Assembly: GCA_943789025.1 (NCBI GenBank)
Contig: CALSSN010000009.1
Coordinates: 62,001-126,000, forward strand
DNA: 64,000 bases
DNA from: an uncultured Verrucomicrobiales bacterium
Lineage (GTDB): Bacteria > Verrucomicrobiota > Verrucomicrobiia > Verrucomicrobiales > DEV007
Direction: 5' to 3'
Part shown: positions 32,690-43,126 of the stretch, one piece after another
Numbering within the stretch: position 1 is the first letter of the stretch
Layout: each line of letters opens with the position of its first letter
Notes under the pieces: model-generated
Database searches by the model: none
What the model saw: only the letters and a program-made list of their open reading frames with translations
Told to the model about the DNA's origin: nothing
Position numbers and translations under genes: made by a program

Positions 32690-33785
32690 TTATTTCTTTT
32701 TCCGGTCTGTCTTAATGAGCAACGTGTTTAGTGATGAGCCTCCGGGAAGGCTACGGAACCCGCCATATAATGCGCCATCAACATTCGCCCACGTTTCTCC
32801 CGGTGCCTCTGGGATATTCCCGGAATTTCGATTTGGCCATTTCCCCGTTCTTTCATTGTGGGCATCTGCCCATCCGAGAATCTTATCGATGGTAAAAGGC
32901 GGTAGAGCATTTCGATTACGAACCCCCCTTTTTTCAGTCAGTAATTGCGCCAAGGATGAGCCTCCGGGCAGATCCCTTGTTCCTTTGCCAAGTGCATGAT
33001 CGATGCTTGTCCATGTTTCTCCGATAGCTTCCGGAATTGATCCTGATTTTTGATTGGGCCACTTTCCCGTTCTCTCATTATGGGCATCTGCCCACACGAG
33101 GATCTTATCGATAGAAAGGGGCGGAAGGTCACTTTGGTTGCGGACGCCTCTTTTATTTGCCAGTAGTTGCGTCAATGAGGAGCCGCGTTTGAGACTTCGT
33201 TGACCTAAATAGATGGCATTAGCAACATTCGCCCACGTTTCTCCCGGTGCCTCTGGGATATTCCCGGAATTTCGATTTGGCCATTTCCCCGTTCTTTCAT
33301 TGTAGGCACCTGCCCACACAAGAATCTCGTCGATGGAAAGGGGCGGACGAGCCAAGTGATGCTGGTGGCCTCGTTTTTCTATCAGTAGCTGAGCCAATGA
33401 CGCGCCCCGTTGGAGGCTTCGCAGCCCCTTAATCAATGCTTGATTGATATTCCCCCAGTTTTCTCCGATAGCTTCCGGAATTGATCCTGATTTTCGATTT
33501 GGCCACTTTCCCGTTCTCTCATTATGGGCATCTGCCCACACGAGGATCTTATCGATAGAAAGGGGCGGAAGGTCACTTTGGTTGCGGACGCCTCTTTTAT
33601 TTGCCAGTAATCGCGCCAGCGATGAACCTCCGGGCAAGCCTCGTCCGCCGACCTCAAGCGATGCGTCTACATTCCTCCAAGTTTCGCCCGAAACCCCGTG
33701 TATCTCGCCGGAGAATCGTTTAGGCCATTTGCCTGTATTTTCGTGATGTGCATCCGCCCACGCAAGGATCTCCTCTTCGGTTAGC
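32690..33785 (-). repeat. Five tandem coding repeats, 222 bp (74 aa) period with a 444-bp higher-order unit
   Basis: Identical blocks at 444-bp offset, e.g. 32781/33225 (acattcgcccacgtttctcccggtgcctctgg) and 33111/33555 (atagaaaggggcggaaggtcactttggttgcgg). Confidence 0.92.
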
Positions 33786-35868
33786 CGAGGACTCTTCAAT
33801 CCCCCCAACCGATCCCACGCCCGGAGCCTTAACGCCTCATTGAAATCCTCAACATTGAAGACGGTTCGAGCGAACTCTTCGTCGGTGTCCTCCGATTGTC
33901 TTTCCCGGCCCACTTTCCTCCGCTCCTTGCCGACGACCACCTTGATGCGCTCGCTCACATCCCCGTCCACCGTGGCCATTGCCTTTAGGACGGAAACGAG
34001 ATTCTGAAAACCGGTTCCCTCAACGACCTCCTCAAGGTCGAGATCGCCGTCCTCGGTGAGGAGGGGGACTAGCACGTGCGCCATCTTCTCGTCCTGCCCT
34101 CGTGGCTTCCTCAGCGCACGACCCACCGCTTGGACGATGTCCACCTTGCTCTGTCGTGGCTGAGCAAAGAGTACGAGGTCTATTCCGGGGACATCAACCC
34201 CTTCTGTCAGGCAGCGGGCATTTGAAATGAGTGCGGTTTTCGCCTTCTCAAATCCCCGAATCTGGGATTGTCTCGTTCCACTTTTGTCTTCCGATGAGAC
34301 CCGAAACGTCTTAATTGATTTCGAGAGCCCTACATTGTTGAGCGCATTCTGGGCGGTCGCGAATGCTCTCGCGTAGCGGTTGCGTGAGTGGAAGGAAACC
34401 GCGTGGTGGACCTTGTGCTGGCGAATCGTCTTTCTCAATGCCACCGCAGTCGCCAGATCCTCCGCAGTGAGAGGTTCCAACTCTTGCCCGTCATCAAGGT
34501 GGGCATCCACGTAGATGCGCTCCTCGATTTGCTGCCTGTATCTCTCCGCCTCGGCTCCGGTCACCCCCAAGGCTATGACGGTGTAATCAGCGAGAATGCC
34601 GTCCTCGATAGCCTTAGCGAAATCCATGTGGTGGTATCGCTTCCCGTAGATCCGCTCGTCGTTCATCCCCACCACCTCATCACGTTCCCCGTGGTAGAAA
34701 CGTTCCGTGGCGGTCATAAAGACACGGTGCCTGACGTCGATGTTCTTCTGGTAGAGCAGGTGCTGGTATGCCTTGCCTTCGGCTCCTGCCGTCTTGTGCG
34801 CCTCGTCCAACAAGGCCACATCGAACTTGGCGCGGCCTACGGCCTCTGCGAAGACTTTGCCGCTCTGGTAGGTGACGAAAGCCACCTTGAGGTCCTTTTT
34901 GCCACACGGTTGCTGCACCCAGTCCTTGATCTTGGTTGGCTTGGTTGTGACCGTCGCCCTGAGGTCATCCACGTGGGTGTCTCCCTTACCGGTTGAAGCA
35001 TCGGAGCACACCAGCAGGGGGTTGAGGTTCTTTCCGTTCGCCAACGCCTCCCGTGCCCATGTCGAGAAGGTCTGGCCAACCAGATAGAGGCTGGGCACTG
35101 CTACCCACCACCGTCTTGGCCTTGAGCGCATTTACCGCCGTCCAGTAGCCGGTCAGACTCTTTCCCGTGCCACACGGCATGATGAGCTTGCCTCGCCGCT
35201 TGCCGTTTGTGATGAAATGGCGCTTGGCAGCCTTGGTAGCCTCATCTTGATATGGGCGAGGGGTCCAGGGTTTTGGTAGTTCCACCTCCTTGCCAACAGC
35301 GACGGCGCGCACGGCCCTCCAGAACTCGTCAGGAAGTGACTGCCACGTATCGAGCAGCACGTGGCGGTAGTCGAAGCCCTTGGCTTCGGCGAAATCAGGA
35401 GTCCTCTCCCAGACCGAGGCGCAGATGATTCCCCCGGTTTAGATGCGGGGGAGTGACGGCGGCAGATTGGGTGCCGAAGGTTGAGAGTTTTTCGTATGGG
35501 ATACACCCATTTGGATTCGTTTGGTATTTCGCCTGTACGCCCCAGAATTCGCCGCTTTTGGTTCGGACAAGAATGTCGACCCCCTTGTCTTTCTTTGGAA
35601 GGTTCAGGTCCTCTTTGATCTCCCACGGAATCTCCTCATCGAGCCATACCTCCTCCACATCGTGGGCGTAGTCAGGGTGGTGCAGAAAGTAGAATTTGAC
35701 CAGCCGCTCGAAGACATCACCCTTCACCTTGTTCGTGGCCTTCGTGTTGCCCAGCGCCCGCTGGCGCGCCTGGAAGTCCTCCCACGACCGGACGCCCTTG
35801 AGGCGCTTTAGCGAGTCGGCTGAGGCATTCCATTCCATTTGTGACCCTACGGCAACCGCTTCTCGCAT
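32690..35868 (-). CDS. PD-(D/E)xK-like nuclease + SF2 DEAD/DEAH helicase + five C-terminal ~74-aa repeats; candidate restriction/defence-type protein (two one-base frameshifts near 35430 and 35100)
   Basis: N-term KGVDILVRTKSGEFWGVQAKY (35395-35868 frame); helicase GKLIMPCGTGKSLTGYW, LLDEAHKTAG, FMTATERF, IVQAVGRALRKPRGQ; repeats WADAHNERTGKWPNRKSGSIPEAIGENW...SLAQLL. Confidence 0.85.
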
Positions 35869-36145
35869 GTCAACGGAGTGCAGGTGCTAATCATGCGAAA
35901 AATAGCAGAATCAACCAATGCTCACCCTCTATTTGTCATACCCCTGGGTAATTAGAGAGAAAAAGGTCGACATTTTGCACGGGCACTCTGAGGTGTTTTT
36001 CGTATAGAGTATCGTAAATCCTGCGCTAGATTGGCCTCTCGTCTGCTTTTCCCGTAATCTCCTGACCGCAGAACCTGAGTGTTTCAGGAACTTGCTTTAA
36101 AAGTCCGACGTTTATAAGACTCACCTCAACAATGAGAGAAAAGCA

Positions 36146-36454
36146 ATGAACCCAGCAAAGAAAGCATACTTGGAACGCATACGCTCTGAATCATCATACC
36201 CAACCTTCCGGTCATTGGTGAAGGTCATAGCAGTTATTCTTTACACGTTTGGAGTGATTGTTCTCGTCGCATCACTTATTATTGGGCTGATGGCCATGGC
36301 GAATTCGGTTGAGCACGGTGCGGGCATTATCTTTGGAGGTTTGATTCTTGGTATATCACAAATTATTACCGGTAAGGTTTTTCAAGAGACATCTTATATG
36401 CTTACAGATATTGCTGATAGTATAACGGATCTTAATTGTAGGTACGAGCAGTAG
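36146..36454 (+). CDS. Small membrane protein, hypothetical
   Basis: Two hydrophobic segments (VIAVILYTFGVIVLVASLIIGLMAM; GIIFGGLILGISQIITG). Confidence 0.55.
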   Translation: MNPAKKAYLERIRSESSYPTFRSLVKVIAVILYTFGVIVLVASLIIGLMAMANSVEHGAGIIFGGLILGISQIITGKVFQETSYMLTDIADSITDLNCRYEQ

Positions 36455-36489
36455 TAGGAAGGCCTTCTTTGGTAAGAGTTATGTAACTT

Positions 36490-36888
36490 GTCTGCAGTGA
36501 ACCCCGAGAGCATTCATTCCATTCCTTGCCGAAGCCGAAACCTGTTTCCGCTCCGGGGACTACGAGGGAGCCAATGGCTACCTGGAGCAGATGCCCGATA
36601 TCGACCGTATCGAGCCAGAAGTCATCGATCTGGAGCATCGCCTAATCCCCAAAACAGGCGAGTGGGAGAAGGCTCGGCGATTCTCCAATGTCATGGAGTT
36701 CGCAGTGCACGACCAGCACAGGATCACAGCGGCAGAGTTCCGGGTCGAGTGGGCCGCATACTGGATGGAGCGAGGGAAAGAAGAGCCTCGCCATGGAACA
36801 GCTACAGCAGGCATCTAAGCTCTGGCCGCCTATCCGGCAGCAGATTATTGACGACCCGAGGCTGGAGGGGGTATTTGGGGCGAATTAA
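36490..36888 (+). pseudogene. TPR-like protein fragment, frameshifted
   Basis: AETCFRSGDYEGANGYLEQMPDIDRIEPEVIDLEHRLIPKTGEWEKARRF... then, after a shift, LAMEQLQQASKLWPPIRQQIIDDPRLEGVFGAN. Confidence 0.45.
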
Positions 36889-37206
36889 GGTGCGCAGGCG
36901 ATGCTCCCACTGAGATTCTAGGCAACCCTCTTGATTGCCCTCGCATTCGGCCATCTTTTTTAGCTATTCTATTCCCAGCGAGTTCTGAGCCGTTCTTCTT
37001 TATTGGGATTTGCTAAATTCTCGGATAGCTAAGGGATCATATCAGAAGCACCGTAGATTGCTGATAATCAAGATAATTGAGCTTTTACACCAGACGACAA
37101 GGAATTAGTTAACTTATTGATGGTCAATGACTAAGACTCTAAGAATGGCTCTGGCGACAATTTTCTTGTGAAAAAATAGCATTCGCTACATGCTCTATTT
37201 ATACTG

Positions 37207-37674
37207 TTCGGCTTAGAAAATATTCCCGATTTTGTAATCTACAAAACGAGAGTTGAGACGATTATCGTAGCGACCACCCCAAAATAGAGAACCCATGAGA
37301 AAAGCAATTATAGTCGCGCTGGATGTCAATGCGCTTGCTGGAAGGAAGAAGGAGCAAGCTTCTGGAAATGCGCTCAATGAACTAAACCAGTATCTAGATG
37401 AGGGTTGGAAGGTACACAATTCCATTCCCATGAGCGGGACTGGACATGGACTCCAATCTGTCACTATCGTCATTTTGGAAAAGGACTGAAGCGATTCGTA
37501 TGAGCTCCCTGACAAATGCTGACCGTGCCGATCGGCCTCTCCGATAAACAAGATGCCGAACAAGGCGTGGCTACCAACAGGCTGCCCACCGCGAGGCGAA
37601 AGCGACATGACAATTCAACCATCAACCGTGAAATCGGAGCGCGCTCCCAGGCAGCCTGTGGCAGCACTCATTCG
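37207..37674 (+). mobile_element. Integron gene cassette 1 (left boundary inferred from GTTCGGC at 37206)
   Basis: Bounded by G|TTCGGC motifs; one small ORF followed by attC 37555-37680. Confidence 0.7.
37295..37489 (+). CDS. Cassette protein 1, short DUF4177-like hypothetical
   Basis: MRKAIIVALDVNALAG...LNELNQYLDEGWKVHNSIPMSGTGHGLQSVTIVILEKD. Confidence 0.6.
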   Translation: MRKAIIVALDVNALAGRKKEQASGNALNELNQYLDEGWKVHNSIPMSGTGHGLQSVTIVILEKD

Positions 37675-37680
37675 TTCGGC
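37555..37680 (+). other. attC recombination site (integron cassette)
   Basis: GCCGAAC...GTTCGGC termini; GCTACCAACAGGCTGCC pairs with GGCAGCCTGTGGCAGC; 126 bp. Confidence 0.85.
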
Positions 37681-38262
37681 ATAAAAATTCACGACGATTT
37701 CATCCCGCCTTCATACTGATTTCACATATGAGTGACACCGTTCAACCGATATGAACCAAACAACATCTAATCTAACATATCCCCAGAAAGGGATCACCTC
37801 CATTGCGCATTTTCTCTTTATGGGAACCGGAATTTACGCGCTTGCCTGTGCTCCCGCGATTCTTCTCGCTGAACGGCTCGGTTGGTCGCAGTCTTTTTTT
37901 CACGCTACCCAACTCGTCGCTACGATTCTATGCGTTCCTGCCGCCGCCTGTTTTCTCTTAAATACGCGAGGGTTGCGTTTTAATTGGGCACGCTGTTTTG
38001 CGTTTGTCGCCTGCGTATTGTCTGGCCTCTGGTTGGCGTTTGTTCTTCATGTTTTTCTGACTCTGGATTTCAGCGCGATGGACTGAAGGGAAAAGCTGGG
38101 TCGACGACCTATCCCTGATCAACCCGCGATCAAGAAAACAATAGCCGAACAAGGCGTCGATCCTAACGCCTGACCCGCTGCGAGTTCAACCCGTCATGAC
38201 CATTCAACCATCAACCAAGAAGTCGGAGCACGCCCTCGGTCAGGCGTAGGATGACTTGGACG
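37675..38262 (+). mobile_element. Integron gene cassette 2
   Basis: Between the G|TTCGGC junctions of two attC sites; single ORF in attC orientation. Confidence 0.8.
37751..38086 (+). CDS. Cassette protein 2, hypothetical membrane protein
   Basis: Several hydrophobic segments; single ORF of the cassette. Confidence 0.65.
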   Translation: MNQTTSNLTYPQKGITSIAHFLFMGTGIYALACAPAILLAERLGWSQSFFHATQLVATILCVPAAACFLLNTRGLRFNWARCFAFVACVLSGLWLAFVLHVFLTLDFSAMD

Positions 38263-38268
38263 TTCGGC
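38144..38268 (+). other. attC recombination site (integron cassette)
   Basis: GCCGAAC...GTTCGGC; left TCGATCCTAACGCCTGACC vs reverse complement of right TCATCCTACGCCTGACC; 125 bp. Confidence 0.9.
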
Positions 38269-38277
38269 AAACAAGAA

Positions 38278-38714
38278 TGGGCCCCGCAAAAATTGCCATG
38301 AGACGAAACCGCGATCTGCCGCTAGCCCTCGCTACAATTTTCCTGACTCTCCTGTTGGGCGGATGCCAGACTCCGGATCAGGTATTCTCAGGGTTCCTAT
38401 CGGTCGGTAACGAAGGCAGCGAGACCATATGGGTAGATCGTACAAAAGGCCTTCAGAACGAGATTACCGCGGGCCGAATCGGCGCCCTGCCCAAGCATAC
38501 CTACAAATACTTGCCGCTTGGAAGAATGCCCTTGCCGAACAGCCTCACGATCTATTGGCGAGAAGCCGATGGAGGAGATGTCAGAAGCTCAGTCCTGAAC
38601 TTGGCGGATTTCCAGCCAACAGAGCGATGGATGCCATTGGTTCTAAGCTACAAGAACGGGGCATGGGAAGCGACATTGGTAAAGGAGCGATCTCCAGTAT
38701 GGTCTCTGGATTAG
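38278..38714 (+). CDS. Cassette protein 3, putative lipoprotein
   Basis: ORF MGPAKIAMRRNRDLPLALATIFLTLLLGGCQTPDQ..., lipobox LGGC; directly follows attC 2. Confidence 0.7.
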
Positions 38715-38730
38715 CGAGGAGGCACGCCAT

Positions 38731-38760
38731 GCCGAACAAGCGGATACAGACCAAAGCACA
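38731..38760 (+). other. Truncated attC (5' end only)
   Basis: GCCGAACAAGCGG matches the attC 5' core of the two upstream sites; no GTTCGGC partner found before the next gene. Confidence 0.5.
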
Positions 38761-38796
38761 TGGACCCCGTCCACAAAAACTGACACACTGGATAGC

Positions 38797-39843
38797 ATGA
38801 GAATACTACTGATCCTGATTGCCATGACATCCTGCCTTGCTGCTGAGGTTACCAGCGATGTCGTGGAGAACGACCGCTCGATCACCAGGATCGCCTTTGG
38901 TTCCTGCTACAACCCGCATAAGAAAACAACCCCGATCTTCGACGCGATACTGCAACACGAACCCGATATCTTTATCTTCCTGGGCGACAACATCTACGGC
39001 GACACGGAAGACATGAACCTGCTGAAGACGAGATACCGGAAACTCGGTGCCGTCGAAGGCTACCAGAAATTACGCAGGCAGGCGCAGATACTCGCCACCT
39101 GGGATGACCACGATTACGGAGTCAATGATGGCGGAAAATCCTATCCTAAGCGCGAGGAGTCCCAGCAGGTGTTCCTCGATTTCTTCGGCGACCCGGAGTC
39201 CTCGGTAAGACGCACCAGGCCGGGGATCTACACCTCTTACTCGTTTGGAGAACCGGGCAGGAGGGTTCAGATCATCCTGCTCGACACCCGCTACTTCCGG
39301 GATGAACTCCCTCGTAACGAGGAACTATCGGGGTCCGGCAAGGTCGGCTGGTACACCCCGACCACGGACACCACCAGGACGTTGCTGGGTGATACGCAGT
39401 GGCAGTGGCTGGAGAAACAACTGCAGGTCGAGGCGGATGTCAGGATCATCGCCTCCAGCATCCAGGTTCTCGCCCATGAAAAAGGCATGGAGAACTGGGG
39501 CAACGTGCCCCACGAACAGCAACGGCTCTTCGACTTGCTACAACAACACAAGGCCAACCATACCGTTATGATCTCAGGAGACGTCCACTACACCGAGTTG
39601 TCGAAGGTCATGCTCGGTGACTACCCGCTCTATGACCTGACCAGCAGCGGAATGTCGCACGCCAACACACGCTGGGCAAAGGCCCCCAACTCGTTCCGGG
39701 TCGGCCAATCCCATGGTGAGATCAATGCCGGGCTCATCGAGATTGACTGGGCAAAGCAGTCCCTGACCCTCAATGCCATCAACGGGGAGGGCAGCAAGTT
39801 GATCGAGCACCCGCTGGAGTTCACTGCGCTGGAGTTCGATTAG
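38797..39843 (+). CDS. PhoD-like phosphatase (secreted)
   Basis: ITRIAFGSCYNPHKKTTPIFDAILQHEPDIFIFLGDNIYGDT, ILATWDDHDYGVND, VMISGDVHYTEL. Confidence 0.88.
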   Translation: MRILLILIAMTSCLAAEVTSDVVENDRSITRIAFGSCYNPHKKTTPIFDAILQHEPDIFIFLGDNIYGDTEDMNLLKTRYRKLGAVEGYQKLRRQAQILATWDDHDYGVNDGGKSYPKREESQQVFLDFFGDPESSVRRTRPGIYTSYSFGEPGRRVQIILLDTRYFRDELPRNEELSGSGKVGWYTPTTDTTRTLLGDTQWQWLEKQLQVEADVRIIASSIQVLAHEKGMENWGNVPHEQQRLFDLLQQHKANHTVMISGDVHYTELSKVMLGDYPLYDLTSSGMSHANTRWAKAPNSFRVGQSHGEINAGLIEIDWAKQSLTLNAINGEGSKLIEHPLEFTALEFD

Positions 39844-39943
39844 CCATCAACAACGGGACCAGGCAGAGCGCCGGGGTAAGCATGAGCAGGTGGCTTCTCG
39901 CAATGAAGCAGGCGGTCCGGGCACACCGCACTCCCCGAGCACT

Positions 39944-40456
39944 TCAGGGTTGCCCACGTTTTGGGCTGTGATCCTTGCGGGTGGCGAACGTCGCCCCGAT
40001 CCAGAGGATGCCGCCCACTGCGACCAGTGCGGCGCCGACCGGGGCCAGGTAGAAGAGCAGCACCGCGCTGAGCAGCCCGAGCGGGTGCATGTCGGTCGGC
40101 GGGACGATCCACTCGTAGATGAATGTGATCAGCAGAGAGCATGCAGTCAGCCCGATGAGTGCCCCCCCGAGCCAGCAGGTCAAGATGGCCAGCCGGAGAA
40201 TCCAATCCGAGCTGGTTTTTCTTCCCTCCACAGGTGTCCCGCCGGTTGCCACCATTAGCCTGACCATAGTCCGACCCGACCTGCCTGGCAATCTGCCCGC
40301 ATAGCGCTCAGCTGCCCGCGCCCCTGAAGAGCGCGCACCAATGATTGACCCGCATGGCCTCCCCGGGGTATTAATCAGGTGGCATACCACCCGGCAAGTG
40401 ATGAAAACTCTTTTCCATAAAGCATCCTCCCGCCGCCGGCTCACCCGTGCTTTCAC
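39944..40456 (-). CDS. Hypothetical membrane protein
   Basis: Hydrophobic segments LRLAILTCWLGGALIGLTACSLLITFIYEW and LLSAVLLFYLAPVGAALVAVGGILWIGATF. Confidence 0.5.
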   Translation of the reverse strand: MKARVSRRREDALWKRVFITCRVVCHLINTPGRPCGSIIGARSSGARAAERYAGRLPGRSGRTMVRLMVATGGTPVEGRKTSSDWILRLAILTCWLGGALIGLTACSLLITFIYEWIVPPTDMHPLGLLSAVLLFYLAPVGAALVAVGGILWIGATFATRKDHSPKRGQP

Positions 40457-41475
40457 CCTGCCGCTGGCGCTGACCTGGATCCTGATCGCCAGCCCGCTCC
40501 AGGCTGCCGCACCCGCCGGCTTTGCCGAACCGGTCCGCCTGCGGGCCGGGGATGGCTACGTGAAAACCGAGAGACCCGGCTACGCGTCACCCTGCCTCGC
40601 GGACGTCGACGGCGATGGTGTCACCGAACTGCTGGTAGGCCAGTTCATGCGGGGCAAGATCCGTATCTACGAACCGGTGGCCGACGACCCGTCTAATACC
40701 CGCTATGATGAGGGACGCTGGCTGGAGGCGGATGGGAAAGTCGCCGAGGTTCCCGGTGTCTGGTGATGCACCAGTTCGACGCCACAGTTTGTGGACGTCA
40801 CCGGGGACGGCATCGCGGACATCATCTCGGGCGACTACGTGGCCGATGCGGAACGCAAGCAGGGCCTCGCCTACCAGTATGTGATCGCTGGCAAACCCGA
40901 CGGCAGCTATGCCAGGGCGACACCGATCAAGGCAGCAGACGGCAAGCCACTGGTCCTGCCCGGAATCACCGGCAAGGACCGCTACGACCTTTCCAGCATC
41001 TGCAGCCACCCTTTCGCCTGCGACTGGGACGGGGACGGGGAACCTCGACCTGCTGATTGGCAACTTCCAGGGCACCTTCTACCTCGCGGAAAATACCGGC
41101 AGTGCCGAAGTGCCGTCGTGGAAGGCGCAAGGCGAATGGATCCAGGGCGGTGACGAAAAGCTGCTCGGTCTCGGCCAGCCGAGGATCTACCACAGCGCCC
41201 CCTTCGTCATCGACTGGGATGGCGACGGGGATCTCGACATCATCAGCGGTGACTCCAATGGCGGCGTCTACTGGGCAGAGAATTCAGGCACGCGCGAGGC
41301 ACCAGTGTTCGGCGACTTCCAGGAACTGGTCGCGAAGCCGAAGCAGGCGGACCTGAGCCGTCATATCGACACCGAGGACCAGGTCATTCCCGGAAAGGCC
41401 ACGCGTGTCCGCACCCCCTCCAACCCCGACCGCCAGACGCCGCGGGAGGAACGGGTTGAAAAAGGAAATTCCTAG
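40401..41475 (+). CDS. Secreted FG-GAP/VCBS-repeat protein with an in-frame TGA (40764-40766) and a frameshift near 41040
   Basis: LADVDGDGVTELLVGQFMRGKIRIYEPV, FVDVTGDGIADIISGDYV, DWDGDGDLDIISGDSNGGVYWAENSG. Confidence 0.8.
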
Positions 41476-41479
41476 CAGC

Positions 41480-43126
41480 CCCCCTCCCGGGCGCGCCCGG
41501 GGAAAGACATCGATGAAACTTCCTTGATGGGCGTTCGGCCATCAGGCACGCTGTCGGTGCATCCTGCTGCGAGGCAAGCAATACACCGACTTTACAGTGG
41601 TGCTCCTCGAGCCCGTCTAGCAGCTTGGTGCCGGAGGCCGTGCGTGAAGTCATTGGTGGCGAGCCTGGCACAAGCCAGGCCGACCCCGCATAAGAGAATA
41701 CTCATGCTTTTGCCCCTCCGGGCCGCCGCAGTCAGGATGCACAACCCAGACCCACCGCATCATGACCAGAAAGACCAACCGCAAGCGCAAAAAGAAATCC
41801 GCGTCGAAATCGCCAGCCCCCGCTACCAAGATGAACCCCGACGCCGCCGGCATCGACCTCGGGGCCACGGTCCACTACGTGGCGGTGCCCGCGGATCGCG
41901 ACCCGCAGCCGGTGCGCCACTTCGGAACCCTCACCGAGGATCTCCAGGCACTGGCAGATTGGCTCGGAGCCTGTGAGATCACCACCGTAGCGATGGAGGC
42001 CACCGGGGTCTACTGGATCCCGCTTTTCCAGATCCTGGAGGGCCGCGGCTTCGAGGTCTGCCTGGTCAACGCGCGCCATGTCAAGAACGTGCCAGGGCGC
42101 AAGAGTGACGTGCAGGACTGCCAGTGGCTGCAGTACCTGCACAGCGTGGGATTGCTCAACGCATCCTTCCGGCCGCCCGCCGCAATCTGCGCGGTGCGTT
42201 CCCTGATGCGCCACCGCGAGAGCCTCATGCGCACCAGCTGCGACCACCTCCTGCGCGTCCAAAAGGCGCTCGATCAGATGAACGTGCAGCTGCACCACGC
42301 CGTCACCGACATCACCGGGGTCACCGGCCTCGCGATCCTCGACGCAATCGTGGCGGGCGAGCGCGACGCCAGGGTGCTCGCCGGCCACCGCGACCCCCGC
42401 TGCAAGAAGAGCCAGGCCCAGATCGCCAAGGCGCTGCTGGGCGACTGGCGCGAGGAGCACCTCTTCACCCTGTGCCAGTCCCTCAAGGCGTGGCGCTTCC
42501 ACCAGCAGCTCATGGGCGAGTGCGAACAACAGATCGACAAACACATGGGTTCTCTGGAAGATCGCAGCGACGGACCGCCCCCGCCGTCGGTCAAAAAGAG
42601 CATCAAGCCGCCAGAGCAACCGATGCGTCAGCACCTCTTCTCCAAGTTCGGGGTCGACCTGACCGCCGTCGAAGGCGTGAGCATCCAGACATCCCTGGCA
42701 TTCCTCGCAGAAGTAGGCACCGACGTGGGCAAGTTCGCCACCGCCGAACACTTCGCCTCGTGGCTGGGCCTGTGCCCCGACAACCGCATCACCGGCGGGC
42801 GCACCCACGCGGCCCACACCCGCAAGGTCAGCAACCGTCTCGCCACCGCCCTTCGCATGGCCGCCCAGTCGTTCCATCGGTCGAAGTCCTCGCTAGGCGA
42901 CTGGTTCCGCCGCATCCGCGCCAAGCTCGGGACCAAAGCCGCCGTCACCGCCGCCGCACACAAACTGGCCCGCATCCTCTACGCCATGGTAAAACACCGC
43001 ACCCCCTTCGACCCCGACCGCATCGGCAACCCCGAGCAGGCCCGCGCAAGAAAAGAACGCTTCCTGCGCCGCCAGGCAGAGCAACTCGGGTTCGCCTTGA
43101 CTCCCGTGGAGGGGGAAGTTTCATAA
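41480..43126 (+). mobile_element. IS110-family element (boundaries approximate)
   Basis: IS110-type recombinase with ~280 bp 5' noncoding leader. Confidence 0.7.
41762..43126 (+). CDS. IS110-family DEDD transposase/recombinase
   Basis: AGIDLGATVHYVAV, TVAMEATGVYWIPLFQILEGRGFEVCLVNARHVKNVPGRKSDVQDCQWLQYLHSVGLL, and C-terminal GVSIQTSLAFLAEVGTDVGKFATAEHFASWLGLCPDNRITGG. Confidence 0.93.
   Translation: MTRKTNRKRKKKSASKSPAPATKMNPDAAGIDLGATVHYVAVPADRDPQPVRHFGTLTEDLQALADWLGACEITTVAMEATGVYWIPLFQILEGRGFEVCLVNARHVKNVPGRKSDVQDCQWLQYLHSVGLLNASFRPPAAICAVRSLMRHRESLMRTSCDHLLRVQKALDQMNVQLHHAVTDITGVTGLAILDAIVAGERDARVLAGHRDPRCKKSQAQIAKALLGDWREEHLFTLCQSLKAWRFHQQLMGECEQQIDKHMGSLEDRSDGPPPPSVKKSIKPPEQPMRQHLFSKFGVDLTAVEGVSIQTSLAFLAEVGTDVGKFATAEHFASWLGLCPDNRITGGRTHAAHTRKVSNRLATALRMAAQSFHRSKSSLGDWFRRIRAKLGTKAAVTAAAHKLARILYAMVKHRTPFDPDRIGNPEQARARKERFLRRQAEQLGFALTPVEGEVS

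Follow-up and report, generated by a model that had tools for sequence, protein, structure and literature searches.

Integron gene cassettes are joined at attC sites, which have been described as hairpins in which the central spacer is unpaired, the R''-L'' arm carries extra-helical bases and the terminal structure varies (PMC2727003). Clusters of at least two attC sites with no intI nearby are referred to as CALINs, for which off-target insertion, intI loss and rearrangement have been given as origins, and Verrucomicrobiota is listed among the integron-bearing phyla (PMC8618304). In the sedentary chromosomal integrons (superintegrons) of Vibrio, where the expression of genes deep in arrays has been raised as a question, promoter-bearing gene-less cassettes drive downstream cassettes, and one transcription start site was mapped within an attC (PMC11014356).

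Here we analyse a short cassette array in a 64,000-nt stretch (the window; contig C9, 62001-126000) of a Verrucomicrobiales assembly of 2.57 Mb that is 81% complete. The array consists of two complete cassettes followed by a third with a broken attC (Table 1). With a probability of about 0.93, it is a CALIN on an assembled chromosome without IntI, since the attC sites form a cluster without intI and the recombinases of the assembly are only of the XerC/XerD types. Two complete attC sites in tandem, short co-oriented ORFs and an assembly that yielded no intI are what it shares with the CALINs of PMC8618304, from which it has no essential difference; its left edge lies on plain sequence, and its final attC is broken. 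The array is thus a further case of a known structure in a phylum already known for integrons. It also documents clearly that integron cassettes occur outside Proteobacteria, and it offers a base-by-base view of cassettes crossing genus and family lines in Verrucomicrobiales.

Table 1. Parts of the cassette array (window positions; R1 is the covariance model described in the text).
Feature	Position	Strand	Size or content	Basis
Left junction core	37206..37212	+	GTTCGGC	Homology to G235 and G239 starts exactly at 37206
Cassette 1	37207..37674	+	468 bp	Same unit in G235 and G239 (another family), 91-92% DNA identity
Cassette 1 ORF	37295..37489	+	64 aa, weakly DUF4177-like	Pfam PF13783
attC site 1	37555..37680	+	126 nt	R1 104.9 bits (seed member of R1); arms; two extra-helical bases
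Cassette 2	37675..38262	+	588 bp	78% DNA identity to G012 over exactly 37673-38151
Cassette 2 ORF	37751..38086	+	111-aa membrane protein, without known family	
attC site 2	38144..38268	+	125 nt	R1 110.3 bits (seed member of R1)
Cassette 3, broken	38263..38740	+	attC down to R'' and a few bases	Sequence
Cassette 3 ORF	38298..38714	+	Putative lipoprotein, lipobox LLLGGC	Reading frame
Orphan R'' core of cassette 3	38731..38740	+	GCCGAACAAG	Exact match

The two complete attC sites had been proposed by a sequence-only reading, and their coordinates, ends and lengths are borne out, as are the GTTCGGC at 37206 and the lone R'' at 38731. Each site lies 3' of a short co-oriented ORF, and the R'' and R' boxes of both form seven complementary bases (GCCGAAC...GTTCGGC). 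The left arm was aligned with the reverse complement of the right arm for each site. Both have an R-L spacer of 6/7 nt that is mostly unpaired. Beyond it come two pairs and then a first extra base on the R''-L'' arm; a second one (A on the top strand, T on the bottom) follows after another five to six positions and is itself followed by about ten paired bases. The same alignment script gives the same layout for the aadB attC of a class 1 integron plasmid, with the two extra-helical bases of the R''-L'' arm placed alike. An imperfection on one arm, as had been read from the sequence, is present, but it comprises two bases in each site and not one. With the canonical attC sites of class 1 integrons and the Vibrio VCR, the window's sites thus share the R boxes, the unpaired spacer and the extra-helical bases, and with VCR also a long terminal loop.

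They differ from the canonical sites in three respects. The fourth base of the core GTTCGGC departs from the consensus RYYYAAC / GTTRRRY, being G / C in both sites, and is variable across the family; because the core preserves GTT and the crossover point and the cassettes are shown to be mobile (see below), we take it as a variant core, and such a departure of a whole lineage from the textbook consensus matters for detection tools. The first extra-helical base is C on the bottom strand instead of G, and a G-to-C change at this base of a VCR site had minor effects (PMC2727003). Finally, the loop centre of the window's type is conserved across genera. Over 100 nt the two sites share 73% identity, and the similarity of their centres, from which a single cassette family had been proposed, extends to many other loci with the same central consensus. 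As single-stranded DNA, both strands of each site are more stably folded than most shuffled sequences, with z = -3.4 and -2.0 for the bottom strands (1 and 6 of 200 shuffles fold equally well) and z = -2.5 and -3.3 for the top strands.

A covariance model (R1) was built from 11 related sites, including the window's two, that were aligned without imposed structure. In this alignment 9 of the 15 predicted pairs show two-sided changes, and none shows one-sided changes only. Among 150 model-aligned sites, standard pairs fill 91.7% of the pair cells (64.4% when shuffled, 30-38% when the partners are slid), with a covariation score of 0.588 versus 0.143; because this larger alignment was fitted to the model, the 11-site alignment is the cleaner evidence. 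In both, structure is kept while sequence varies, and the near-absence of G-U intermediates would fit a hairpin of DNA. R1 finds more than 200 sites beyond its 11 seeds, and the pattern at the window's two sites thus exceeds chance. The check by covariance model that had been suggested for the locus gave matches at the window and elsewhere in its genome. Some points weigh against the CALIN reading: the variant core, the presence of the window's own sites in the R1 seed, the lack of any recognised attC- or attI-like sequence before cassette 1, and the class 1 attC sites of a Providencia plasmid, which R1 did not detect although it detected a 59-nt attC near IntI on a Diaphorobacter plasmid (E = 2.5e-4). 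An Rfam scan of 35500-41000 gave no match up to E=1, and a plasmid DNA search with the array gave none.

R1 sites are present in 58 of 76 genomes of the family. The integron integrase model has matches (E <= 1e-60) in 117 of 291 genomes of the order, with 107 above the curated cut-off, and in relatives attC sites of the window's type adjoin a full-length IntI. In Verrucomicrobiales bacterium bin_ma_oilr2.031 (G058), the IntI (TIGR02249, 327 bits, cut-off 265) points away from three adjacent attC sites (72-105 bits), which is the usual integron layout. In a genome of another family of the order (G064), about 40 co-oriented attC sites occupy one 20-kb stretch (L036, G064:C1:2979000-2998900), with IntI 5 kb upstream (G064:C1:2974296); many sites of this array belong to a shorter class of about 106 nt. 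Such long arrays of the window's attC type beside IntI in relatives resemble superintegrons, whereas in the window neither intI nor attI was found and there are only three cassettes.

The integrase was missing from the first reading of the window, and a search of the whole assembly likewise found no intI in the 81% that is covered; the two Phage_integrase proteins present are both of the XerC/XerD types. The array might nevertheless belong to a complete integron that has its intI and attI in the unassembled 19% or elsewhere on the chromosome, in which case it would be merely a detached part of an integron. The completeness of 81% and the frequency of intI in the order make this conceivable, but we consider it unlikely. 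Unrelated genes flank the array to the left and right within its 163-kb contig, so that no intI adjoins it, and attC sites are scattered over three contigs, with two further sites on contig C2 and one good and one weak site on C4. The C2 cluster lies at G000:C2:134773-135491 (L104:7264-8492), where an Unstab_antitox/ParE toxin-antitoxin pair overlaps the first attC. Upstream of 37206 within the window there is no R1 match and no recognised attC or attI (for which there is no general model), and downstream of the R'' of cassette 3 a scan of the window found neither a second core nor an R1 match.

For the CALIN, the attC clusters on two other contigs lead us to favour, tentatively, repeated off-target insertion over one decayed platform. 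An IntI that uses the bottom strand of attC in folded form and cuts at G^TTCGGC would have inserted the cassettes, with the crossover at the left junction core expected between G37206 and T37207. This IntI would have been present earlier and lost, or would be encoded in the unassembled 19%. Without it the cassettes would be fixed, and could move only if IntI were supplied in trans.

Many attC sites of relatives contain a promoter-like motif in the terminal loop. About 40% have TTGAC and TAnnnT spaced by 17 nt and facing the next cassette (examples with TTGACT and exactly this spacing are L035:2355-2479, L107, L108, L114 and L202:236-360), and all instances so far come from two genera (g2 and g12). 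The word TTGAC occurs in the loop of 69 of the 150 sites when the top strand is read, of 3 when the bottom strand is read and of 12 when the word is reversed, and the T, A and T of TAnnnT at 17 nt from it are conserved at 94, 94 and 95%, the top three of 36 unanchored positions; these sites share ancestry, and the R1 seed held two such loops. Between genomes, identity is 85% in the hexamers, 69% in the spacer and 53% in the stem arms. In 56 further long sites from other stretches, TTGAC is found in 13, of which 10 have TAnnnT at 17 nt and none has it at any other spacing from 12 to 22. Of the TTGAC-TAnnnT pairs outside attC, 8 of 15 are intergenic at spacings of 16-18 nt and 1 of 19 at 13, 14, 20 and 21 nt (p = 0.004, with the spacings grouped after the table was seen). 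In the window's own genome TTGAC-N18-TAnnnT is not abundant (14 sites versus 48 for the backward pattern), so no genome-wide promoter consensus can be derived in this way.

From these sequence patterns, we put at even odds the proposal that many attC sites of this Verrucomicrobiales lineage carry in their loop a sigma-70-type promoter aimed at the next cassette. Each captured cassette would then bring a promoter for its neighbour, and a transcription start past the left arm would yield a message without the attC hairpin. The promoters of Vibrio superintegrons belong to particular cassettes (PMC11014356), whereas in the window's relatives the predicted motif recurs in the attC loop itself, of which a limited literature search found no description. 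If these loops work as promoters, they would provide an answer to how genes deep in long arrays are expressed.

The promoter-like motif is absent from the window's two attC sites, which belong to a sister class with an equally placed centre without -35 and -10. This second loop class, to which most sites without TTGAC also belong, shares CATGAC-ATTCAACC-TCAACC across genera (37608-37629 and 38197-38218 in the window), and is not promoter-like or coding. A reading of the conserved centre (ATGACCATTCAACCATCAACC and the like) as a short leader ORF for translational coupling to the next cassette is suggested by an ATG in the same stretch in 75 of 107 long sites without TTGAC. It is very improbable and was rejected for want of codon periodicity: variation is not concentrated at third positions (information by codon position 0.64, 0.44 and 0.45), and a stop lies inside attC for 68 of the 75 frames and, in frame +1, for 69.

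Cassettes 1 and 2 are gene-plus-attC units that occur in different contexts with ends at cores, and by comparison of sequences they are demonstrably mobile. The sample includes no other member of the window's genus. The DNA identity of cassette 1 to both G235 and G239 begins at G37206 exactly, which upholds the left junction that had been suggested there, and runs into the left arm of attC 1, where it stops. Upstream of the cassette, G239 has a 128-nt attC, G235 a different 71-nt attC and the window neither. The copy of cassette 2 in G012, which is of a different genus, extends exactly from the preceding core to R'' (L127), and its attC is kept as R'' alone. These boundaries are those expected of cutting at G^TT. 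Identical flanks in other genomes, which would have spoken against mobile cassettes, were not found for either, and both have different neighbours elsewhere. A site in G054 shares 95% identity with attC 2, and sites in G034, G008 and G109 share 91%; in no case does the likeness to the window go further than the site itself. In an integron-bearing stretch (L034), the sole window gene found is a PhoD relative (41%). The cassette ends at 38731-38740 and in L127 are independent and both fall directly after R'', which may reflect hairpin-driven deletion. A dispersed palindromic repeat (REP/MITE type) placed after short genes and moved by a transposase instead of an integron integrase, to which the near-identical copies (91-95%) in different genera and the lack of IntI in the window's assembly could point, is very improbable and already contradicted by the cassette-exact boundaries, as whole gene-plus-site units and not repeats alone move with ends at cores, the arms differ between copies by compensatory change, the extra-helical bases are placed as in attC, and the same sites occur in arrays adjoining IntI.

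As to their contents, the cassettes had been read as encoding a DUF4177-like protein, a membrane protein and a lipoprotein. The similarity of the cassette 1 protein to DUF4177 is present but weak (19.1 bits, E=0.0015) and below the Pfam cut-off of 25 bits. This protein is 95% and 94% identical to those in G235 and G239, which belong to another family, and only 52% identical within its own family. The cassette 2 membrane protein matched no known family in domain searches; it has 76% amino acid identity in G012, where the copy contains an in-frame TAG, and 46-49% in two other families. For cassette 3, no family was found in domain searches, the ORF most likely starts at 38298, and the term lipoprotein is based on a lipobox read by eye and nothing else; its single distant relative (30% identity) contains an internal stop.

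Cassette 3 is followed by a PhoD-like gene (38797-39843). On the left of the array, overlapping frames at 32690-35868 (-) encode a Mrr_cat_2 domain and a helicase with repeated C-terminal modules, and look like a single restriction-type gene broken by a frameshift. To the right, a secreted repeat protein of FG-GAP look is encoded in two frames at 40341-41475 (+), with a break near 40760 (by eye), and a 454-aa ORF at 41762-43126 (+), 3 kb from the array, has by eye the look of an IS110-type transposase.
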